This document shows, in pieces, positions 52,766 to 62,466 of a DNA stretch of 64,000 bases. Position numbers and translations under genes: made by a program. Each line of letters starts with the position of its first letter. Positions within the stretch are counted from its first letter, which is position 1. Source of the stretch: Synechococcus sp. CC9902 (GTDB lineage Bacteria; Cyanobacteriota; Cyanobacteriia; PCC-6307; Cyanobiaceae); NCBI RefSeq assembly GCF_000012505.1, contig NC_007513.1, forward strand, positions 806,001 through 870,000. Direction: 5' to 3'. A model generated the notes under the pieces. It was not told where the DNA came from. It worked only from the letters and a program-made list of their open reading frames with translations, and did no database searches.

Positions 52766-53722
52766 TCAATTTGCTGGAGGCCGACTGATCGGATGGGTTT
52801 TGAGGTAGTCCTTCACAGTGATCGGTTCGGCTTGGTTGTAGCCCACGGGCAGCCATAGGTCGCCATCGGCGGCGTTGAAGTGGATTTCCCAGTGATAGAG
52901 GCCGTTGTAGGCCTGTGGATCCTCCCGTATTAATGAGGCATACAGCAGAACAGCACGTCCGTAGTAGTCGCTGTTGTTGTACCCCCACAACCCTTGGCGG
53001 ATATCCCTGAGCCCACCGCGTCTCACCAAATAACGGGCTGCAGCTTGAATTGCATCGTGCGGATCGCGAATGTTGCCTTGTCCGATCCCTGCTTCCGCCC
53101 AGGTGGTGGGTAAGAACTGCATGGGGCCTTGCGCATTGGCCACTGAAATGCCATCGATGCGCCCCATGCCGGTTTCAACCAAATTCACTGCGGCCAGAAC
53201 CTCCCACTCAATGCCTGTGGCGGCCTCGGCTTTGCGGTAGTAGGAGAGCAGGTTTTCCGCCGGTTCTGGAGCAATGATTCGCCAGGCGGGTAAAACCGTT
53301 GGGCGGCGAGTCCGACCCATCCGTAAAAATTCCCCCCGAGCGGCCAAATGCCGCTCAGCCACACTGCGCCATTGAGCGGGGAGTGCCGCAACCACTTCTG
53401 AAGACAGGGTTGGGTTGGCGGAGAGAACCCGATAGATCACTTGTTGTTGATGCCCCAGATCGGGGAGGGATCCTTCAGGGGTTGTTGGGTCCCTTAAGGC
53501 GGTCTCAACCGTGTTGAGCAGTGCAGCAATCTTTTGGGGATGGGAGGGCACCTTCGGGTAGCTGCGAACCTTCGCGATCGTGGGTTGCTTGCCGATTGCG
53601 GCTGGACTCTCTGGCGAGCCGCCCAGCGAGGGAAGCGCAACTGTTTTGGGTTGTTTTATCCCCAACAATGCCAGCGTCGTGGCGGCAGCCACAAAGGCAA
53701 TCAGAGCAGAACGTCTCCGCAT
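52766..53722 (-). CDS. Lytic murein transglycosylase (SLT domain)
   Basis: 318 residues from the ATG at 53722. N-terminal signal/anchor (RRRSALIAFVAAATTLALLG), a linker, then an SLT domain with the catalytic Glu in VNLVETGMGRIDG and the downstream GPMQFLPTTWAEAGIGQGNI and GLWGYNNSDYYGRAV motifs. Cleaves peptidoglycan glycan strands in the periplasm. Confidence 0.88.
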   Translation of the reverse strand: MRRRSALIAFVAAATTLALLGIKQPKTVALPSLGGSPESPAAIGKQPTIAKVRSYPKVPSHPQKIAALLNTVETALRDPTTPEGSLPDLGHQQQVIYRVLSANPTLSSEVVAALPAQWRSVAERHLAARGEFLRMGRTRRPTVLPAWRIIAPEPAENLLSYYRKAEAATGIEWEVLAAVNLVETGMGRIDGISVANAQGPMQFLPTTWAEAGIGQGNIRDPHDAIQAAARYLVRRGGLRDIRQGLWGYNNSDYYGRAVLLYASLIREDPQAYNGLYHWEIHFNAADGDLWLPVGYNQAEPITVKDYLKTHPISRPPAN

Positions 53723-53761
53723 CTCGTTGTCTATGGGCAGTGGCGTGACCCTACGGCCCAC

Positions 53762-54337
53762 TCAGCCCTTAAGGAAGGTGCTTCGGTCGTGAAAATCAGC
53801 TTTTGCCTGGTGGCGATGGGCCCAGTGACTTAACCCTGCATCTCCATGGTCGATCACGGCAGAGAGGTTCACCTCGGGACACACCCCAGCAGACCACCAT
53901 GGCGCTAAGGGAAGACGAACGTCCACGCGAAGGTGATGGTGCAAGCGTTGGATCCCAATCTCTGGGTCTTGCTTCAGCATCTGCGGTTGCTGGCCACTGC
54001 GATAGCTCTCGAAGCTGTAGACCGCCCAATCGCCATTGGGGGAAAGATTGATCTCCCAATAACGGCTTTGATTCGGCAAGGCCAAAAATGCTTCAAAACA
54101 GGTGGCTTTCCAGAGACCATCTCGACGGTTCCCCTCCTGGGGGCCGTCATCTAGGGGGGAGGGAAGCACCAGCGTCGAGAGACCGGGAGGCGCTAACGCA
54201 AGCAGTCCATAGCTGAGCTCTAGCCAACCATTGCTGTTCCAAACGAGCGATGCACTGACTTGAATATCACTGGGAATGGAACGCTCGAAGGGGGTCAAGC
54301 GCGCCACCTGACGCAGCATGACGGCGGGGCGAGGCAT
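53762..54337 (-). CDS. DOMON-like domain protein
   Basis: 191 residues. The core DGLWKATCFEAFLALPNQSR, YWEINLSPNGDWAVYSFESY and LSHWAHRHQAKADFHDRS fit the DOMON-like type-9 carbohydrate-binding-module fold of bacterial proteins. Ligand unknown. No signal peptide. It ends 39 bp upstream of the transglycosylase and starts 5 bp after the kinase-like gene, so likely in one unit with both. Confidence 0.75.
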   Translation of the reverse strand: MPRPAVMLRQVARLTPFERSIPSDIQVSASLVWNSNGWLELSYGLLALAPPGLSTLVLPSPLDDGPQEGNRRDGLWKATCFEAFLALPNQSRYWEINLSPNGDWAVYSFESYRSGQQPQMLKQDPEIGIQRLHHHLRVDVRLPLAPWWSAGVCPEVNLSAVIDHGDAGLSHWAHRHQAKADFHDRSTFLKG

Positions 54338-54342
54338 CTCTT

Positions 54343-55461
54343 TTAGTTCACGGGTCGATCGCTGAGGCGTTGGATGAGGCGTTGAAGCGCCGGCATCTGA
54401 TTCTCGATGTCTTGCACAAGCTTGAACTGAACAGCGGCGCGTTGAAGATTGTGGCTTGGTCGATTTGTTTTGAAATAAACGTTCCCTTCAAGATGATCCG
54501 TAAGGAAGCGCAGTCCGAGTTCCAGGGGGATCAAACGAATGCAGTCTGGGAGGTAATGAAGATCCCATTCACTCAGAAAGCCGCGCGCAACCTTGATATA
54601 CCCCTCCAGCATCGCTTCACAGAGGTTTAAGTCAAAACCAACGCTCTCTAGATCGGTGGTTTCCTCGCCCGCTGCGTTGCAACAGGAACGAATGCAATCG
54701 CCGATGTCGTAATGGATTAATCCTGGTTTAACCGTGTCGAGGTCAATCAGGCCGACGGCCTTGCCGCTGGTCTCATCGATCATCACGTTGTTGATTTTGG
54801 GATCTCCATGGATTGGCCGATGCTGCAACTCGCCGCGGGCCAGAGCAGCTTCGAGCACATCAACCCCTTCTCGACGCTTGTCGATGAAGGTGCAGGCCGC
54901 TTGTTCGGCGGGATCCAGCACAGAACAAGAATTGAGCACGGTATCGAAACGATTGAGATACTCTGGCGTTACGTGGAAGTTTTCAAGGGTGTCAGCCAGT
55001 TGGTGAATGGCTAGGTCGTGAATCAAGTTGTGGAACATGCCAAGCCCATACCCCAGCTCGTTCGCTTGGTTGCAATCCTGAATCTCGTTGCTGGTAGTTG
55101 CAGCGCTGATGTAAGTAATTGAGCGCCAAAACTCCCCGTTGTGCTCAACCCATGCGGAGTCTTCGTTTCGGCAGGGCACAATTCTCGGAAGTTCCCAGCG
55201 TCGCCCTTGAAGCTCCGGTGGTGGCGTGGCCATCCGCCGGTCCATGTGTGCACCCAGTGCTTGCAAGTTGCGCATCACTAAATCTGGACGTTCAAACACG
55301 GCTGTGTTCAGCCGCTGCATCACAAAACTCCCCCTCTTGTTTGCCCCTTCGTGGGTGACAAGAAAGGTTTCGTTCACGTTTCCCGAGCCGAGGGTCCGGA
55401 TCGCCGTGATCTGTTCACGGGGATGGAAGCGATCGGCGATGGCTTCCAGGGCCTCGGTCAT
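54343..55461 (-). CDS. APH-family phosphotransferase (N-acetylhexosamine 1-kinase-like)
   Basis: 372 residues from the ATG at 55461. Kinase fold: TLGSGNVNETFLVTHEG is the nucleotide loop; IHGDPKINNVMID is the catalytic loop with its Asp; GLIDLDTVKPGLIHYDIGDC is the metal-binding segment. KINNVMID and LDLDTV-type motifs are those of NahK-like sugar 1-kinases, so a sugar substrate is likelier than an aminoglycoside. Next to a DOMON-like (carbohydrate-binding fold) gene and the dehydrogenase-like gene at 55551. Confidence 0.75.
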   Translation of the reverse strand: MTEALEAIADRFHPREQITAIRTLGSGNVNETFLVTHEGANKRGSFVMQRLNTAVFERPDLVMRNLQALGAHMDRRMATPPPELQGRRWELPRIVPCRNEDSAWVEHNGEFWRSITYISAATTSNEIQDCNQANELGYGLGMFHNLIHDLAIHQLADTLENFHVTPEYLNRFDTVLNSCSVLDPAEQAACTFIDKRREGVDVLEAALARGELQHRPIHGDPKINNVMIDETSGKAVGLIDLDTVKPGLIHYDIGDCIRSCCNAAGEETTDLESVGFDLNLCEAMLEGYIKVARGFLSEWDLHYLPDCIRLIPLELGLRFLTDHLEGNVYFKTNRPSHNLQRAAVQFKLVQDIENQMPALQRLIQRLSDRPVN

Positions 55462-55550
55462 CGATAGTCGCACTGGTCTTATGCCAAAACCTTGCCGTTA
55501 ACCGTTGGGAAGTCCTTCTCTCGGTGTGCGGAACAACAGGCGACTACGAC

Positions 55551-57065
55551 TCAAGTGTCCATTTGCGATTCAATCAAGTCCATGAGCTGTAGGTGGGCGG
55601 CTACACCTGCTTCATTGGCTTCATCCAGGGTTACTTCGCCGCGCATGGCCTGCCGCGCGTTATCGGCGATCACAGCATTCACCAGGAGGTCGAGGGCCTC
55701 TGGAATTTCAAGGTTTTGCAGGGCCTCGCCATAGCGACGGCTATGGCTAGGTCGTACCGATTCCTGGCAGTAGCTGGATAGTTCCCGACTTTCCGTCATC
55801 ACTTGATAGGCGGTTTCCTTCACACCAGGGCGTCCATAGATCGCCATGTACAACAAATTCACCATGGAGGCGTCATGCACTGGGATTGCATATTTGCGGG
55901 CAATTTGTGGCCAGTAGCGCAACGATTTCAGCCCTTCCAGCCCCCCTTTTCGCATCCCGGCTGCTTCACACCACTCTTCGAGTTCCTCCATGGAATGCGG
56001 GCAACGACCTTGTTCCTGCATGCGCATCGCGAGCACCTGGCCGGCTTGGAAATTCCGCGTAGGACTGCCAGAAACCGGCAACATCATGCTGCCGCGGACA
56101 TCCGCCACCATGGCGGTGAGCTGGCTGAACGTGTGGTCGCGCACCTTTTCGAAATCCCCGTCTCGAACAAGCGTTGCCTCAATTCTGGGCACCGCATACC
56201 CCAGCTCTGTGAGGGGAATCGGTTGCCGGTGATAAAGCTTCTGGCGGTCTGGACGCGCCATCGACACCGTGGCGGCCTGGTCCATGCACTGATCAAGAAG
56301 CAGTGTCAGCAACGTGGGCAGCACCCCAGGGTTGTCTTGGTGAAAGGTGTACCCAAAACCAGCAAACACGGAGGCCATGTTTTTGGCCGCTTTGATGTAT
56401 TGCCCTTCAACGTTATGAACTCCAGCTGCTACTTGAATGTTGGGGGAAAGTTGATCGAGTAATTGCGCTCCCAGCATTGCCGTAAGGGCGTTGGGATGGC
56501 AGAAATTGGCGGTGAAACTATCAAAAGGATTGCGAAGGGCCCCATGGCGATGAAACCCTGAGAAAAAGGCCAAGTTGGGCTCCTTTTCGCAGAGCACATA
56601 GGCGCTGTTACTGATTGGATCGTGGTTAAAGGAACCGGCTAGACAAGCCAAAACCACTTGATCACGTCCCAGCTCTTCTCGCAGGCGCGTGGCTTCCAGC
56701 AAATCCTCTTCAATGTGATTGCTGTTGGCGCTGAGCACCACGAGCTCACAGCGTCGAATTAGGTCTTCAAGGGTGTTGGGAGTTCGCTCAGTGCCCGTGC
56801 GGTGGGTTCCCATATCGAGCACGGTTTCCACGTGCCCGGGATCCATGTTTTTGATGGATTCCGCCGGGAAGGCTCCAAGCAGCTCACGACCAAGTCGAGG
56901 GGCAAGCAACAACCGTCCTGCCTCGTTCTGCATCGCGCAGTTGTAGGCCAGTGATGCGGGATAAAGCCCGACGCTGTAGAAGCCAACTTTTCCGGCCACA
57001 ACTTCATGAATCCTGCGTCGGATCGACACGGCATCCAGGCTTTGGTCGAAAAAAGAATTGCGCAT
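55551..57065 (-). CDS. Glycerol-3-phosphate-dehydrogenase-like protein of unknown substrate
   Basis: 504 residues. The N-terminal part has KVGFYSVGLYPASLAYNCAM where a Rossmann loop would be, and CELVVLSANSNHIEEDLL with QVVLACLAGSF as in GpsA-type enzymes. The middle segment EGQYIKAAKNMASVFAGFGY resembles the GpsA ALKNVxAIAAG helix with its catalytic Lys. The glycine pattern of the nucleotide loop is degenerate and the C-terminus is about 150 residues longer than GpsA. The function is not established. 89 bp upstream of the kinase-like gene on the same strand. Confidence 0.6.
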   Translation of the reverse strand: MRNSFFDQSLDAVSIRRRIHEVVAGKVGFYSVGLYPASLAYNCAMQNEAGRLLLAPRLGRELLGAFPAESIKNMDPGHVETVLDMGTHRTGTERTPNTLEDLIRRCELVVLSANSNHIEEDLLEATRLREELGRDQVVLACLAGSFNHDPISNSAYVLCEKEPNLAFFSGFHRHGALRNPFDSFTANFCHPNALTAMLGAQLLDQLSPNIQVAAGVHNVEGQYIKAAKNMASVFAGFGYTFHQDNPGVLPTLLTLLLDQCMDQAATVSMARPDRQKLYHRQPIPLTELGYAVPRIEATLVRDGDFEKVRDHTFSQLTAMVADVRGSMMLPVSGSPTRNFQAGQVLAMRMQEQGRCPHSMEELEEWCEAAGMRKGGLEGLKSLRYWPQIARKYAIPVHDASMVNLLYMAIYGRPGVKETAYQVMTESRELSSYCQESVRPSHSRRYGEALQNLEIPEALDLLVNAVIADNARQAMRGEVTLDEANEAGVAAHLQLMDLIESQMDT

Positions 57066-58184: not shown

Positions 58185-59501
58185 TTAGGCCCGTCGGTTG
58201 CGGGGGGCTGCACCGTCTCCCCGAAGCAACCCTTTTTCCCATCGAGAAACTTGACGAAGGGTAAGTCCCGCCAGGGCTGCAACGACGACACCAACGGCAC
58301 TCCATACCCCGCCTTGGCCTAACCCCACCAGAGCAGCAGCACCCCACAACACCGCCCATGCCCAAGGCCGGGCAGTGCGGATTCGTCTCAGAGCTGTGGA
58401 GCAACTGCGACACGATTGGGTATGGCTGTAAAAACGATCCATCAAGTCTGTGGTTCGCCGACGTTCGGGTAGGGATTCCCCCGCAAATGGCTCACCGCCG
58501 TTGTTGTTCAGCCAGCGATGGAGTGCGGCCACATAGACGTCGGCTCTATTAGGCATAAAGAAGGCTCGATCCGCAGCTGGACTGCCACCAGCTCGCTCCA
58601 AAACTCGTTCCTGCCAATGCAGAAAAACTTGATCGTCCTCCAGCACTTTGTGGTTGCCGATGTGCTGGAGCCATCGCGGTCGTAGGCCGATGAGGAGTTT
58701 TGGGGCGGCCGACTGAAATTGGAAGGGAAAACGGGCAAATAAGCGACATTCACCGCGTCGAATTGGTACGGCATAAACCACCGTGAGGATTCGGGCGAAG
58801 CCCTTCGCTGTGAGGTCATGCCACATCAACTGGGGGGCCTGAAAACGAGTGGTTTGGGAACCGAGCTTTCCCCGACGGGGACCCTCCTCCCAAAAAGCAT
58901 CAAAGCCGTCCTCAGCCTCTCGGGTAATCGTGGCCAGCACTGGCGATGCATTGTTTCGATTGCCGACGGTCTTGTGGTGGGTGAAAGGCACATGGCTCAC
59001 GTCGAGCACGTTCTCCAGCAGGGTCACGGCATCCATGGGGAGGTCGCGAAAGGTGTCCTGCAGCGTCCAGCTGGTGGGGTCCTCCTCCAGGGCTGGTACG
59101 AGGGGTAAGGGATGCTGATTGGCCGAATCCGGCTCTCCCGTCCAAACGAACAGAAGGCCCTGCCCTGTTGCTGTTGGGAGGCTGGAGCAGCGTGATCGGC
59201 GTGCCTCCGGTTTGGTGTTGTCGGTTGCTTGCGGAATTGAACGGCAATGGCCTTCCCCATCGAAACTCCAGCCGTGATATGGACATTCCAGGAGTCCCTC
59301 GTCATTGATCCGGCCCTCGCTGAGGGGCACAAGCCTGTGGGGGCAAACATCAGGGAACACGCGCCAGGAGTGTTGTTCAGCCTGTGCGTCCCACCAGATC
59401 ACCAGGTCTCGCTCGAGCAGTGTGAAGCGGTTGGGTTGGCGGCGATCCAGGTCCTGGAGGTAAGCGATTGGCCACCACTGTTCTGTCCAAGTGGAATGCA
59501 T
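58185..59501 (-). CDS. Rieske oxygenase, pheophorbide a oxygenase/Tic55-like
   Basis: 438 residues from the ATG at 59501. Rieske 2Fe-2S ligands in DVCPHRLVPL (Cys53, His55) and LECPYHGWSF (Cys73, His76); mononuclear iron His in ENVLDVSHVPFTHH (His170, His175). The C-terminus has a CRSC motif and two membrane helices (about residues 388-422), the architecture of PaO/Tic55/PTC52. In plants these oxidise chlorophyll derivatives; the cyanobacterial substrate is not known. It needs a reductase encoded elsewhere. Confidence 0.9.
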   Translation of the reverse strand: MHSTWTEQWWPIAYLQDLDRRQPNRFTLLERDLVIWWDAQAEQHSWRVFPDVCPHRLVPLSEGRINDEGLLECPYHGWSFDGEGHCRSIPQATDNTKPEARRSRCSSLPTATGQGLLFVWTGEPDSANQHPLPLVPALEEDPTSWTLQDTFRDLPMDAVTLLENVLDVSHVPFTHHKTVGNRNNASPVLATITREAEDGFDAFWEEGPRRGKLGSQTTRFQAPQLMWHDLTAKGFARILTVVYAVPIRRGECRLFARFPFQFQSAAPKLLIGLRPRWLQHIGNHKVLEDDQVFLHWQERVLERAGGSPAADRAFFMPNRADVYVAALHRWLNNNGGEPFAGESLPERRRTTDLMDRFYSHTQSCRSCSTALRRIRTARPWAWAVLWGAAALVGLGQGGVWSAVGVVVAALAGLTLRQVSRWEKGLLRGDGAAPRNRRA

Positions 59502-59606
59502 CACAACGTCCTTCCAGGACCGACATGATCGCGCTCGCCTCGGCTTGTTGCGACTTGGCCTGGTGCGACAACCGTGGGAAGGTGACGGCTCGATGCCGCG
59601 AGTGCC

Positions 59607-60827
59607 GTGCAGCGCCTCAGCCCCGATCAACTGTTGCAGGAGCTCTGTGGTGTTGAGGATCTTTTGATCGTTCAAGACCTTGATGGGGTCTGTATGCAGC
59701 TGGTGAATGATCCACTCACACGGCAGATGGATGGGGCCTATGTGATGGCAGCGGGTCAGCTGGGGGATACCTTTGCAGTGCTCACCAATGGTGAGCACGA
59801 GGGGCGCCGGGGCGTGAATCGACTCGTGGAACAGGCCCTCAGTGCAGACCATGATCCGGCTCAAGCCGGGTTGTACTTGCGCGGACTCGCGGCCGGTGGT
59901 GTCCAATTTCAGGACCGTTATGGCCAGCTCAGTCATCCGGGGGTGAGTGAGGCCGAGATCGCGTTTTTGGCCGCGGCTCCCTTACGGATGGAAGCGTTGC
60001 TGAAAGACGGCTTGCCGGAGATCTTTCCCCTGCACTCGTTGGAGCAAATCGCTCAGCTTGCCCATGCAGCCGTCTTGGATACCCAGGTGTCTCCGACGGT
60101 GAATCTCAATGGAATCTTTGCTGCGATTCCAGAGGATGTCGAGAAGCAGCGGATGATGCAGACCCTGCTCCAGCGCTTGATGGAAACGCTGCTGGCCGAT
60201 GCGGAGAAGCAGGGCCTTGAGGGTTCATTTTTTCTGCACGTAGCTCCCAACCTTGGACGCAATGCCGATGGTATGGAACGTCTTAAGCCTGCGGTGAAGG
60301 GTGATGTGGGCACCACTGATATTCAGTTCATGCTGAGTGGTTCGATCAAAGAGGCCGGCTTGTTGGTGCTGCTGAATCAATACATGGCCCGACGTTATGG
60401 GGAGGTGCCCTTTGGTGATGATTTCAATGTTCGCGTTGCTCCACAGACCCATGACGCGTTGTTGAAGCTTGTGCAGGATCGAATACCCGCGGAGCGGATG
60501 CCATTGCTTGTGGGGGTGGGTGACACGGTTACCTCCAATCCTTCTACCGACGGCGCCACCTGGTTGCGGGGTGGAAGCGATCGTGGGTTTTTAACCCTGC
60601 TCCAAGCGTTGGGATCCTGGAGCGGGAGAGAAAACCGCGTGGTTGTCGTTGACAGCAGTCATGGTGAAGTCGATCGCCCAAGCCTCTCTGACCCTGCCCT
60701 TAGGGGTATTTCAGATCCTGAAGACCCGCTAAGGCTCGATGTGTTGATGACGGCAGGGCCAAAGCAATACATCAACTGGTTCTGCCAATTGGCTGCTCAA
60801 CGCTCGTCAAGTCCTGCCACGATCTAG
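59607..60827 (+). CDS. ggpP: Glucosylglycerol-phosphate phosphatase
   Basis: 406 residues from a GTG. DLLIVQDLDGVCMQLVNDPL at residues 18-37 holds the nucleophile Asp pair (DLDGVCM) of this HAD-type phosphatase, as in Synechocystis StpA/GgpP. Removes phosphate from glucosylglycerol phosphate to give the osmolyte glucosylglycerol; partner GgpS is not in the window. FMLSGSIKEAGLLVLLNQYM and the C-terminal AGPKQYINWFCQL are also family features. Divergent from the Rieske gene. Confidence 0.93.
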   Translation: MQRLSPDQLLQELCGVEDLLIVQDLDGVCMQLVNDPLTRQMDGAYVMAAGQLGDTFAVLTNGEHEGRRGVNRLVEQALSADHDPAQAGLYLRGLAAGGVQFQDRYGQLSHPGVSEAEIAFLAAAPLRMEALLKDGLPEIFPLHSLEQIAQLAHAAVLDTQVSPTVNLNGIFAAIPEDVEKQRMMQTLLQRLMETLLADAEKQGLEGSFFLHVAPNLGRNADGMERLKPAVKGDVGTTDIQFMLSGSIKEAGLLVLLNQYMARRYGEVPFGDDFNVRVAPQTHDALLKLVQDRIPAERMPLLVGVGDTVTSNPSTDGATWLRGGSDRGFLTLLQALGSWSGRENRVVVVDSSHGEVDRPSLSDPALRGISDPEDPLRLDVLMTAGPKQYINWFCQLAAQRSSSPATI

Positions 60828-60856: not shown

Positions 60857-61801
60857 TTGACCGTCAGCCCTGCACTGTTTCCTCCACTGCAACGGGTTGC
60901 TTTGACCACACTCCAGGTCAACTTGGGCTATCGCTGCAATCAAAGCTGTGCCCATTGCCACGTCAATGCGGGGCCTACCCGCACCGAAATGATGGAGGCG
61001 GAGCTGTTAGAGCTCATCCCTTTGGTGCTTCGTCGGCATCGCATTGGCTGTTTAGACCTCACCGGCGGGGCTCCGGAATTACACCCTGGCTTTCGGAAGC
61101 TGGTGGCCGAGGTGCGCTCGGCTGGGATAGCGGTGATCGACCGCTGCAATCTCACGATCCTGAATGAACCCGGCCACGGAGACCTTGCTGAATTTTTGGC
61201 GGAGCAGGGTGTTGCCGTGACGGCATCTTTGCCCTGCTACACCGCAGACAACGTTGATCGTCAACGCGGTGATGGTGTCTTCGATCGGAGTCTTCAGGGC
61301 CTCCATCAACTCAATGCTCTGGGCTACGGCAGTGGCGATCCAGAACGGCAACTTGATTTGGTGTACAACCCGCTTGGCGCGGCACTCCCTCCACCCCAAG
61401 CCACTTTGGAAGCCGATTACAAGCGAGAGCTAGCCCGACTCGGCATTCGATTTGATCGACTACTCACGTTGGCCAACATGCCGATCCAGCGCTTTGCCCG
61501 ACAACTGGAACTGAAGGGTGAATTGGATGACTATTGGCAAGTGCTCGAGCAGGCGCACAATCCCACCAACCTTGAGACGGTGATGTGTCGCCAGCTTGTG
61601 AGTGTTGATTGGGAGGGTTCGCTTTATGACTGCGACTTCAACCAACAGCTGTCATTGCCTCGCCCAGGCGTGATCCGTCACTTGCGTGACCTTCTTGAAG
61701 TTGAGGTTGACCTCAGTGGCGATTCAATTCACACCGGACGCCATTGTTTCGGCTGTACGGCTGGTGCCGGATCAAGCTGTGGCGGTGCTCTTCAAGCCTG
61801 A
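60857..61801 (+). CDS. ArsS-like radical SAM protein (DUF3641 C-terminus)
   Basis: 314 residues from a TTG. Radical SAM cluster motif CNQSCAHC (Cys27, 31, 34), LDLTGGAPELHPGFRKLV for SAM binding, and the C-terminal DUF3641 domain with CRQLVSVDWEGSLYDCDFNQ and HCFGCTAGAGSSCGG for additional cluster ligands. The family includes ArsS, proposed to build arsenosugars from dimethylarsenic; whether this protein does so is not shown. No arsM is next to it. Confidence 0.88.
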   Translation: MTVSPALFPPLQRVALTTLQVNLGYRCNQSCAHCHVNAGPTRTEMMEAELLELIPLVLRRHRIGCLDLTGGAPELHPGFRKLVAEVRSAGIAVIDRCNLTILNEPGHGDLAEFLAEQGVAVTASLPCYTADNVDRQRGDGVFDRSLQGLHQLNALGYGSGDPERQLDLVYNPLGAALPPPQATLEADYKRELARLGIRFDRLLTLANMPIQRFARQLELKGELDDYWQVLEQAHNPTNLETVMCRQLVSVDWEGSLYDCDFNQQLSLPRPGVIRHLRDLLEVEVDLSGDSIHTGRHCFGCTAGAGSSCGGALQA

Positions 61802-61847: not shown

Positions 61848-62066
61848 ATGGTGTCTCTCCGACTGATGATCAGTGCCTGCGCTTTGGTGCTCCTCGGTGC
61901 AGCCGTGAATGCCCAGAACGATCAGCCCAAGCAGGCAATGTTTAAAACCGAAGCTGAGGCTCAAGCTGCCGCCCCAGGGTTTGGTTGTGAGGGTTCCCAT
62001 CGCATGGGTGAGATGTGGATGGTTTGCGCGAATCACACCGATGCCAATTCACATCACGGACATTGA
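61848..62066 (+). CDS. DUF3721 secreted small protein
   Basis: 72 residues from the ATG at 61848. Signal peptide (LRLMISACALVLLGAAVNAQ) and a DUF3721 domain: MFKTEAEAQAAAPGFGCEGS, then HRMGEMWMVCANH and a His-rich NSHHGH end. The Cys, Met and His residues of the motif suggest metal, possibly copper, binding. Followed four bases later by a second DUF3721 protein. Confidence 0.75.
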   Translation: MVSLRLMISACALVLLGAAVNAQNDQPKQAMFKTEAEAQAAAPGFGCEGSHRMGEMWMVCANHTDANSHHGH

Positions 62067-62070
62067 TTCA

Positions 62071-62466
62071 ATGAAAGGAGATGGTGATTGCGCTAGCAAT
62101 CGAAAGCGCATTGCCATCGGTGTTGCACCGATGGGAACCATTGCCATTGGGATTGTGCCGATGGGCGTGATCTCGATCGGCGTGGTGCCGATGGGGGTGG
62201 TGTCGATTGGTGTGGTCGCCATGGGTGTGTTCAATGCCGCAATCGTGGGCATGGGGTTGATCGCGGTGGGGTTCAACACCATGGGCGTCTTAACCGCTGG
62301 ACCCATGAGCATGGGCTTGATTCAAATCCGTTCCACTACAAATCCTCGCTATCTCGCTTACCCCTCACGGGAGCAGGCTGAAGAACAGGCCGCAAAACTC
62401 GGTTGCCACGGTGTTCATCGCATGGGTGACCGTTACTGGATGCCCTGCAACGAGCATCCTCAGTAA
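62071..62466 (+). CDS. Met-Gly decapeptide repeat protein with C-terminal DUF3721 domain
   Basis: 131 residues from the ATG at 62071 (an in-frame ATG at 62041 overlaps the previous gene). Residues about 12-85 form eight near-tandem decapeptides of the type IGVVPMGVVS, with Met-Gly at fixed spacing: IAIGVAPMG, ISIGVVPMG, VSIGVVAMG. A polar linker leads to a DUF3721 domain (GCHGVHRMGDRYWMPCNEH). No signal peptide. The repeat is strongly hydrophobic and may form a beta-solenoid or a membrane-associated stack. Function unknown. Confidence 0.75.
   Translation: MKGDGDCASNRKRIAIGVAPMGTIAIGIVPMGVISIGVVPMGVVSIGVVAMGVFNAAIVGMGLIAVGFNTMGVLTAGPMSMGLIQIRSTTNPRYLAYPSREQAEEQAAKLGCHGVHRMGDRYWMPCNEHPQ

Follow-up and report, generated by a model that had tools for sequence, protein, structure and literature searches.

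A divergent protein with a predicted glycerol-3-phosphate dehydrogenase fold as a probable replacement of GpsA in marine picocyanobacteria

A 504-amino-acid protein, here called DH504, is encoded within a stretch of 64,000 nucleotides (the window) of the genome of Synechococcus sp. CC9902, which is a single contig of 2.23 Mb. DH504 is probably a highly divergent NAD(P)H-dependent glycerol-3-phosphate dehydrogenase (G3PDH) that replaces GpsA in marine picocyanobacteria and supplies glycerol 3-phosphate (G3P), which every glycerolipid needs. This assignment is likely on the convergence of four lines: the predicted fold, conserved residues, the distribution among genomes and the genomic context. 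A preliminary description of the window, made from the sequence alone, had recognized a GpsA-like layout in the 504-residue protein and had suggested that it may belong to a pathway with a sugar kinase and a DOMON-like protein encoded beside it. Both open reading frames (ORFs) and all the quoted motifs were confirmed on the minus strand (VVLSANSN and KAAKNMASVFAGF in DH504, HGDPKINNVMID in the 376-amino-acid kinase; Table 1), and the resemblance to GpsA can be extended to a specific function.

The AlphaFold2 model of DH504 (35 sequences) reached a predicted local distance difference test score (pLDDT) of 78.7 and a predicted template modeling score (pTM) of 0.78, with low confidence at residues 290-314 and 475-504. 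A Foldseek search of the PDB with this model revealed that the 12 best matches are all G3PDHs (E 2.5e-8 to 4.9e-7). In VIA-align, all of the top 16 entries are G3PDHs (Z 27.5 to 22.1), and the 17th, a ketopantoate reductase, follows at Z 14.5. The top entry is Coxiella GpsA (3k96), with Z 27.5 and 308 aligned residues at 3.3 Å. The predicted structure of DH504 thus appears to have the two-domain G3PDH fold. The "long extra C-terminal domain" described earlier proved to be partly a tail of about 60 residues, the last 30 of which (475-504) are of low confidence, but much of the added length consists of insertions within the core, as the G3PDH match covers residues ~16-441.

Conservation among the 94 distinct homologs is consistent with an active enzyme of this fold. 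K228, N229, D322, G325, R337, N338, G342, R57 and R60 are identical in 94/94, and the KN, D and RN residues of a G3PDH active site can be recognized among them; their presumed equivalence to those of GpsA rests on motif order and on the sub-threshold PF07479 and hhalign registers. PF07479, the C-terminal domain of G3PDH, is the Pfam family most often touched when 35 homologs are scanned singly (8/35), although the best match (E 0.003, 18.2 bits) is below the cut-off of 25. The six PF07479 matches inspected singly (4/10 and 2/10 homologs) align residues ~316-417 with profile positions 55-138 of 142. The hhalign alignment, itself non-significant, pairs D322 and R337-N338 of DH504 with D214 and R225-N226 of GpsA. 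In the nucleotide-binding loop, G28, Y30, S31, G33, L34 and Y35 are found in 94/94 homologs and P36 in 93/94.

The distribution of DH504 is complementary to that of gpsA. DH504 was found in 67 of the 388 sampled genomes of the class, and the family is therefore not a chance ORF; PF07479 was found in 322 of them. The genome of CC9902 has no PF07479 match, and PF01210 matches there only below its cut-off. Quality genomes are defined here as those at least 90% complete, 95 in the family of CC9902 (Cyanobiaceae) and 334 in the class sample; the family tallies, taken from compiled genome, quality and completeness lists, give totals of 54 for DH504, 54 for gpsA and 38 for ggpS among the 95. DH504 alone is present in 39 of these family genomes, gpsA alone in 39, both in 15 and neither in two, which are drafts of 90 and 94% completeness. 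Across the class, DH504 is carried by 50 of the 56 quality genomes without gpsA and by 9 of the 278 with it. CC9902 has a glpK-glpD pair, and 18 of the 39 DH504-only quality genomes of the family, most of 1.6-1.9 Mb, are without glpK, glpD and ggpS. As gpsA, glpK and glpD were not found in these 18 genomes, DH504 is the only candidate for G3P formation found there. In these counts, glpK remnants of 30 residues (G067 and G241, two of the 18) were scored as absent, and glpD was scored at E < 1e-40 only, weaker matches being attributed to other flavoproteins; both gene names come from the best NCBIfam matches of RCC307 and G057 proteins, those of glpD lying under the curated cut-off. One DH504-only genome of the family (G307) has a PF01210 match just over the cut-off (C1:733748-733999; 26 bits, 79/158 positions, in a 453-amino-acid frame), which is probably another nucleotide-binding protein.

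The 63 named DH504 loci belong to Synechococcus, Prochlorococcus and other cyanobacteria. These others include Xenococcus, Acaryochloris, Hyella, Waterburya, Zarconia navalis, Lyngbya confervoides and Leptolyngbya cf. ectocarpi, most of which we take to be marine. Four contigs of Gammaproteobacteria metagenome-assembled genomes (MAGs; L040, L052, L055 and L064) carry DH504 in a picocyanobacterial gene order, an apparent case of misbinning. Relatives beyond the class were sought by a single-sequence scan, which reaches close relatives, and by phage and viral scans, and within this scope the family was seen only in cyanobacteria. A phage origin was considered and dropped, as 50,697 phage records yielded nothing at E 0.01; viral contigs gave no DH504 match in one scan with L081 as the query. 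A tree of DH504 built by a quick method places sequences of other cyanobacterial families among the picocyanobacterial ones, with some forks left open, and allows horizontal transfer. Its root is arbitrary and G001/G110 stand on a very long branch, so it was not used for dating.

The genomic context links DH504 to glucosylglycerol synthesis. In the window, ggpP starts 2.5 kb beyond DH504 and diverges from it, and 35 of the 63 named loci have ggpP in the retrieved sequence around DH504, which extends 8 kb at most. A cluster in the order ggpS, ATP-binding cassette (ABC) transporter genes, DH504, ggpP, GH13, glpD and glpK was found in L058, L092, L120 and RCC307, a strain that also has gpsA (L066, with L123 representing the identical locus); L059 and L065 have the RCC307-type order on contigs that end before ggpS. 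In L125, from another family, ggpS, glpD and DH504 follow one another on the same strand. Of the 54 quality family genomes that carry gpsA, ggpS is present in 14/15 with DH504 versus 1/39 without it, and outside the family the counts are 12/14 and 69/310. Co-occurrence and clustering with ggpS and ggpP thus both associate DH504 with the glucosylglycerol module, with the exception of 18 quality genomes that have DH504 without ggpS. Within genera g9, g15, g176, g177 and g185, DH504 and ggpS vary together as read by eye, except in G459, where ggpS has one in-frame stop and DH504 was not found, and in G435. In the latter genome DH504 is in pieces (C3:16048-16861) and gpsA is present, with no ggpS, glpK or real glpD match; the pieces have the appearance of a salt-module relic in decay. 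Below 90% completeness, G460 (g187) and G479 (g15) have ggpS without DH504; over the whole family, DH504 was not found in 14 of the 62 genomes that carry ggpS, and 11 of these 14 fall short of the quality threshold. In other glucosylglycerol makers gpsA itself belongs to the cluster, as it is listed among the co-localized genes in the legend of a figure of PMC6753628. Among the matches listed, gpsA is at most 5 kb from ggpS in 16 of 31 non-family genomes (counted by eye). As gpsA clusters with ggpS elsewhere, DH504 takes the seat held there by gpsA.

The catalysis, the cofactor and the order of events that we infer for DH504 are as follows. The Rossmann domain of DH504, in which the loop is altered, would be the site of NAD(P)H binding; R57 and R60, both invariant and located after the second strand, point to NADPH as the cofactor. 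With the residue roles of GPD1 as the model, K228 and D322 would lie close to the carbonyl of dihydroxyacetone phosphate (DHAP) during its reduction, and R337-N338 would bind its phosphate. The resulting G3P would be passed to glycerolipids, since G3P is acylated in phospholipid and glycolipid synthesis; where glucosylglycerol is made, GgpS would combine it with ADP-glucose and GgpP would dephosphorylate the GgpS product. Escherichia coli GpsA is strongly inhibited by its product G3P, and a dedicated G3P enzyme is therefore reasonable where much G3P is consumed in making an osmolyte. DH504 would have served first as a salt-module enzyme and later as the replacement of GpsA. We lean, with some reserve, toward a wider reading in which DH504 represents an unrecognized cyanobacterial family of NAD(P)H-dependent G3PDHs that first supplied G3P for glucosylglycerol and later supplanted GpsA in the ancestry of marine Synechococcus and Prochlorococcus. 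In this reading, Prochlorococcus with small genomes lost the salt module afterwards but were unable to give up the enzyme, and their membrane lipids would rely on an enzyme that was first used for osmolyte synthesis.

Several observations weigh against the identification of DH504 as a G3PDH that took over from GpsA. The protein of the window has no match in Pfam, NCBIfam or the PDB sequences, and a profile of 35 DH504 sequences found nothing in the PDB sequences even at E 10. Among the NCBIfam models, the commonest sub-threshold match of the homologs is an unrelated haloacid dehalogenase (11/35, best E 0.0017), and the GpsA model touches 2/35 at E 0.02; as the dehalogenase model is the commoner, matches of this level can be chance. 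The hhalign comparison of DH504 with 11 cyanobacterial GpsA sequences was not significant (probability 0.5%, E 0.11), and 2/20 column-shuffled controls outscored it. Direct sequence homology between DH504 and GpsA was thus rejected as not significant in PDB searches, hhalign and shuffled controls, and the sequence of DH504 by itself proves nothing about a G3PDH identity. Neither PF01210/PF07479 nor the NCBIfam GpsA model reaches its cut-off. The nucleotide loop, rightly called degenerate in the preliminary description, reads S31-V32-G33-L34-Y35-P36 at the position of GxGxxG, with the central glycine kept and the outer two replaced. The lysine of the TKG motif, which we take to correspond to K120 of GPD1, is part of K78-G79, invariant in the 11 GpsA sequences; DH504 has CLAGSF in the presumably corresponding place, with no lysine seen. 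DH504 would therefore work like a G3PDH and share its predicted fold, but would not be a plain member of the GpsA family, as it fails the sequence models and the GxGxxG pattern.

The distribution also has exceptions that count on the same side. DH504 and gpsA are kept together in the 15 quality family genomes mentioned above, and six quality genomes of the class outside Cyanobiaceae have neither gene. By subtraction, 16 class genomes outside the family are without PF07479, of which two have short PF01210 matches above the cut-off; completeness is below 90% in 10 of the 16, and five of the other six are drafts of 80-400 contigs. The sixth, a genome of a single contig of 2.8 Mb (G354), has neither gpsA nor DH504, yet carries ggpS, and another of the same genus (G384) has a weak gpsA match (E 5.6e-12); loss of gpsA in a reduced, perhaps host-dependent lineage is possible in this genus. 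Within the family, neither DH504 nor gpsA was found in 28 of 151 genomes. Of these 28, 26 fall short of the quality threshold and 15 carry glpK or glpD. Among the 53 poorer family drafts with readable completeness, 23 are without both genes versus ~13 expected from completeness. It may be that some lineages do without both proteins, perhaps by another route to G3P, or that the region is missing from single-cell-like drafts. Small family drafts that have glpK and glpD with neither gpsA nor DH504 include G390, G393, G395, G396, G397, G401, G416, G419, G428, G429 and G438. Because of shared ancestry the distribution counts are not independent, and counts are given here instead of Fisher values.

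In an improbable alternative, DH504 belongs to the same superfamily but reduces a different metabolite connected with salt, and G3P comes from a reversed FAD-dependent GlpD or from glycerol and GlpK. The glpK-glpD pair of CC9902, where gpsA was not found, would fit this, as would the way DH504 tracks the glucosylglycerol module and the 15 family genomes with glpK or glpD that show neither DH504 nor gpsA, all of them drafts, 13 with a completeness below 90% and the other two with 90 and 94%. However, GlpD or GlpK cannot be the G3P source in the 18 quality DH504-only genomes without glpK or glpD, the fold match is specific to G3PDH, and thermodynamics disfavors the use of quinol by GlpD to reduce DHAP. 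We consider it very unlikely that DH504 is a catalytically dead G3PDH paralog that regulates glucosylglycerol or lipid synthesis while another enzyme makes G3P: K228-N229, D322 and R337-N338 are invariant in 94/94 sequences, the most diverged ones of small genomes included, and DH504 is kept in genomes of 1.6-1.7 Mb where gpsA, glpD and glpK were not found. The altered nucleotide loop, the lack of an evident TKG lysine, the ~170-200 extra residues and the presence of DH504 alongside gpsA in 15 quality family genomes are the features in favor of a dead paralog.

The pathway proposed in the preliminary description, in which the kinase, DH504 and the DOMON-like protein act together on a sugar or polyol phosphate, is scarcely credible, although the identities suggested for the two neighbors were borne out. 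By its sequence, the 376-amino-acid kinase is a homolog of N-acetylhexosamine 1-kinase (NahK; PDB 4ocj, E 9.7e-54; 4wh1, E 9.9e-54), with a Pfam APH match at E 6.7e-19. The homology to NahK is near full length, and the APH-type catalytic motifs HGDPKINN and LIDLD are present; the difference from NahK is that no lacto-N-biose pathway gene was noticed among the inspected neighbors. The 191-amino-acid protein was modeled with pLDDT 89.3, and its predicted fold is a CBM9/DOMON-like beta-sandwich (4jpq, Z 14.7; CBM9 structures, Z 11.5-12.3, with 7nwn at Z 12.3; a subunit of ethylbenzene dehydrogenase, Z 8.7). Pfam CBM9_2 touches this family below the threshold in 2/17 sequences. The three genes are adjacent on the same strand in the genus of the window and in some Prochlorococcus, and the kinase family is present in 33 of the 63 named DH504 loci, some contigs ending too early to judge. 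However, sbcC/sbcD-like genes separate the kinase from DH504 in 14 of these 33 loci, and DH504 has no kinase match next to it in G001, G110, G307, the RCC307-type loci or the loci from other families of cyanobacteria (Xenococcus, Acaryochloris and Leptolyngbya). All 33 kinase-bearing loci are picocyanobacterial by gene order and tree, including four filed as Gammaproteobacteria MAGs and two titled merely "cyanobacterium". The kinase and the DOMON/CBM9-fold gene are neighbors of DH504 in some picocyanobacteria only, and the kinase is no demonstrated partner; the steadier partners of DH504 are the glucosylglycerol genes and, by mutual exclusion, gpsA.

Table 1. Positions in the window of DH504, its candidate functional sites and the neighboring genes.
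Feature	Position	Strand	Basis
DH504, 504-amino-acid G3PDH-fold protein, proposed GpsA replacement	55551..57065	minus	ORF, predicted fold, gpsA-complementary distribution
Altered GxGxxG nucleotide-binding loop region, DH504 residues 24-36 (AGKVGFYSVGLYP)	56958..56996	minus	Homolog conservation
K228-N229, KN motif with candidate catalytic lysine of DH504	56379..56384	minus	Invariant in 94/94; equivalence to GpsA KN by motif order
D322 to N338 of DH504: candidate catalytic D322, candidate phosphate-binding R337-N338	56052..56102	minus	Invariant in 94/94; sub-threshold PF07479
NahK-like (APH-fold) sugar kinase, 376 amino acids, neighbor of DH504	54343..55473	minus	PDB 4ocj, Pfam APH
CBM9/DOMON-like beta-sandwich protein, 191 amino acids, neighbor	53762..54337	minus	Predicted fold
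Lytic-transglycosylase-like gene	52766..53761	minus	
ggpP, glucosylglycerol-phosphate phosphatase	59607..60827	plus	TIGR02399, 543.1 bits (cut-off 365.5)

Other genes were observed around DH504 and ggpP. An ArsS-type arsenosugar radical SAM gene (TIGR04167, 433.5 bits; 60857-61801) immediately follows ggpP in the window, and an ArsS-type homolog is near ggpP in many picocyanobacterial loci. An ORF of 583 amino acids of the Rieske/pheophorbide-a-oxygenase type (58185-59936) overlaps ggpP, on the opposite strand, with its N-terminal part; the Rieske match begins at residue 153, and translation probably starts further in. A 185-amino-acid ORF at 61909-62466 bears the repeat (I/V)GVVPMGV(V/I)SIG. 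In all three Acaryochloris loci (L072, L076 and L080), genes of families F53 and F54 are upstream of DH504 on the other strand; in L072 these are lpxB and an lpxA-like gene.

If the proposed function is true, DH504 would fill a gap in G3P synthesis in very abundant ocean phototrophs, whose membrane lipids and salt protectant backbone draw on G3P, and an essential reaction of metabolic models would gain its gene. DH504 would also be one marker of the division between marine and freshwater picocyanobacteria and represent a non-orthologous replacement, in which an osmolyte enzyme took over a housekeeping step. EC 1.1.1.94 is reported as unannotated in three Prochlorococcus strains and WH7803 (PMC3369817), and glpA has been assigned to marine and brackish Synechococcus, gpsA to freshwater strains and both to brackish strains of SC5.2 (PMC9361551), marine strains being credited there with an FAD enzyme alone. 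No replacement enzyme is named in the consulted parts of these two papers. In the open-licence literature no publication assigning the role of DH504 was found; a paywalled assignment could exist.

Compared with the GpsA-type G3PDHs, DH504 shares the predicted fold over ~310-330 residues and the KN and D...RN motifs in the same order; it also stands beside glucosylglycerol genes, as gpsA does elsewhere in cyanobacteria, and has a distribution complementary to that of gpsA. In contrast, the identity in the structural alignment is 11-15% with no significant sequence match, the GxGxxG loop is altered, no TKG lysine is evident, and DH504 is ~170-200 residues longer, with the inserts and the tail on its side. 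The FAD-dependent GlpD/GlpA enzymes act on the same G3P/DHAP pair, and glpD adjoins DH504 in L125 and shares a cluster with it in L066 and L120; however, they differ in fold and cofactor, are normally oxidative and coexist with DH504 in many genomes. The best Foldseek match of DH504 (E 2.5e-8) is DsGPDH of Dunaliella salina (PDB 6iuy), which we take to be a G3PDH linked to osmolyte synthesis in a salt-adapted phototroph. The Dunaliella enzyme presumably bears a phosphatase domain of its own, whereas in the window the phosphatase, GgpP, is encoded by a separate gene.

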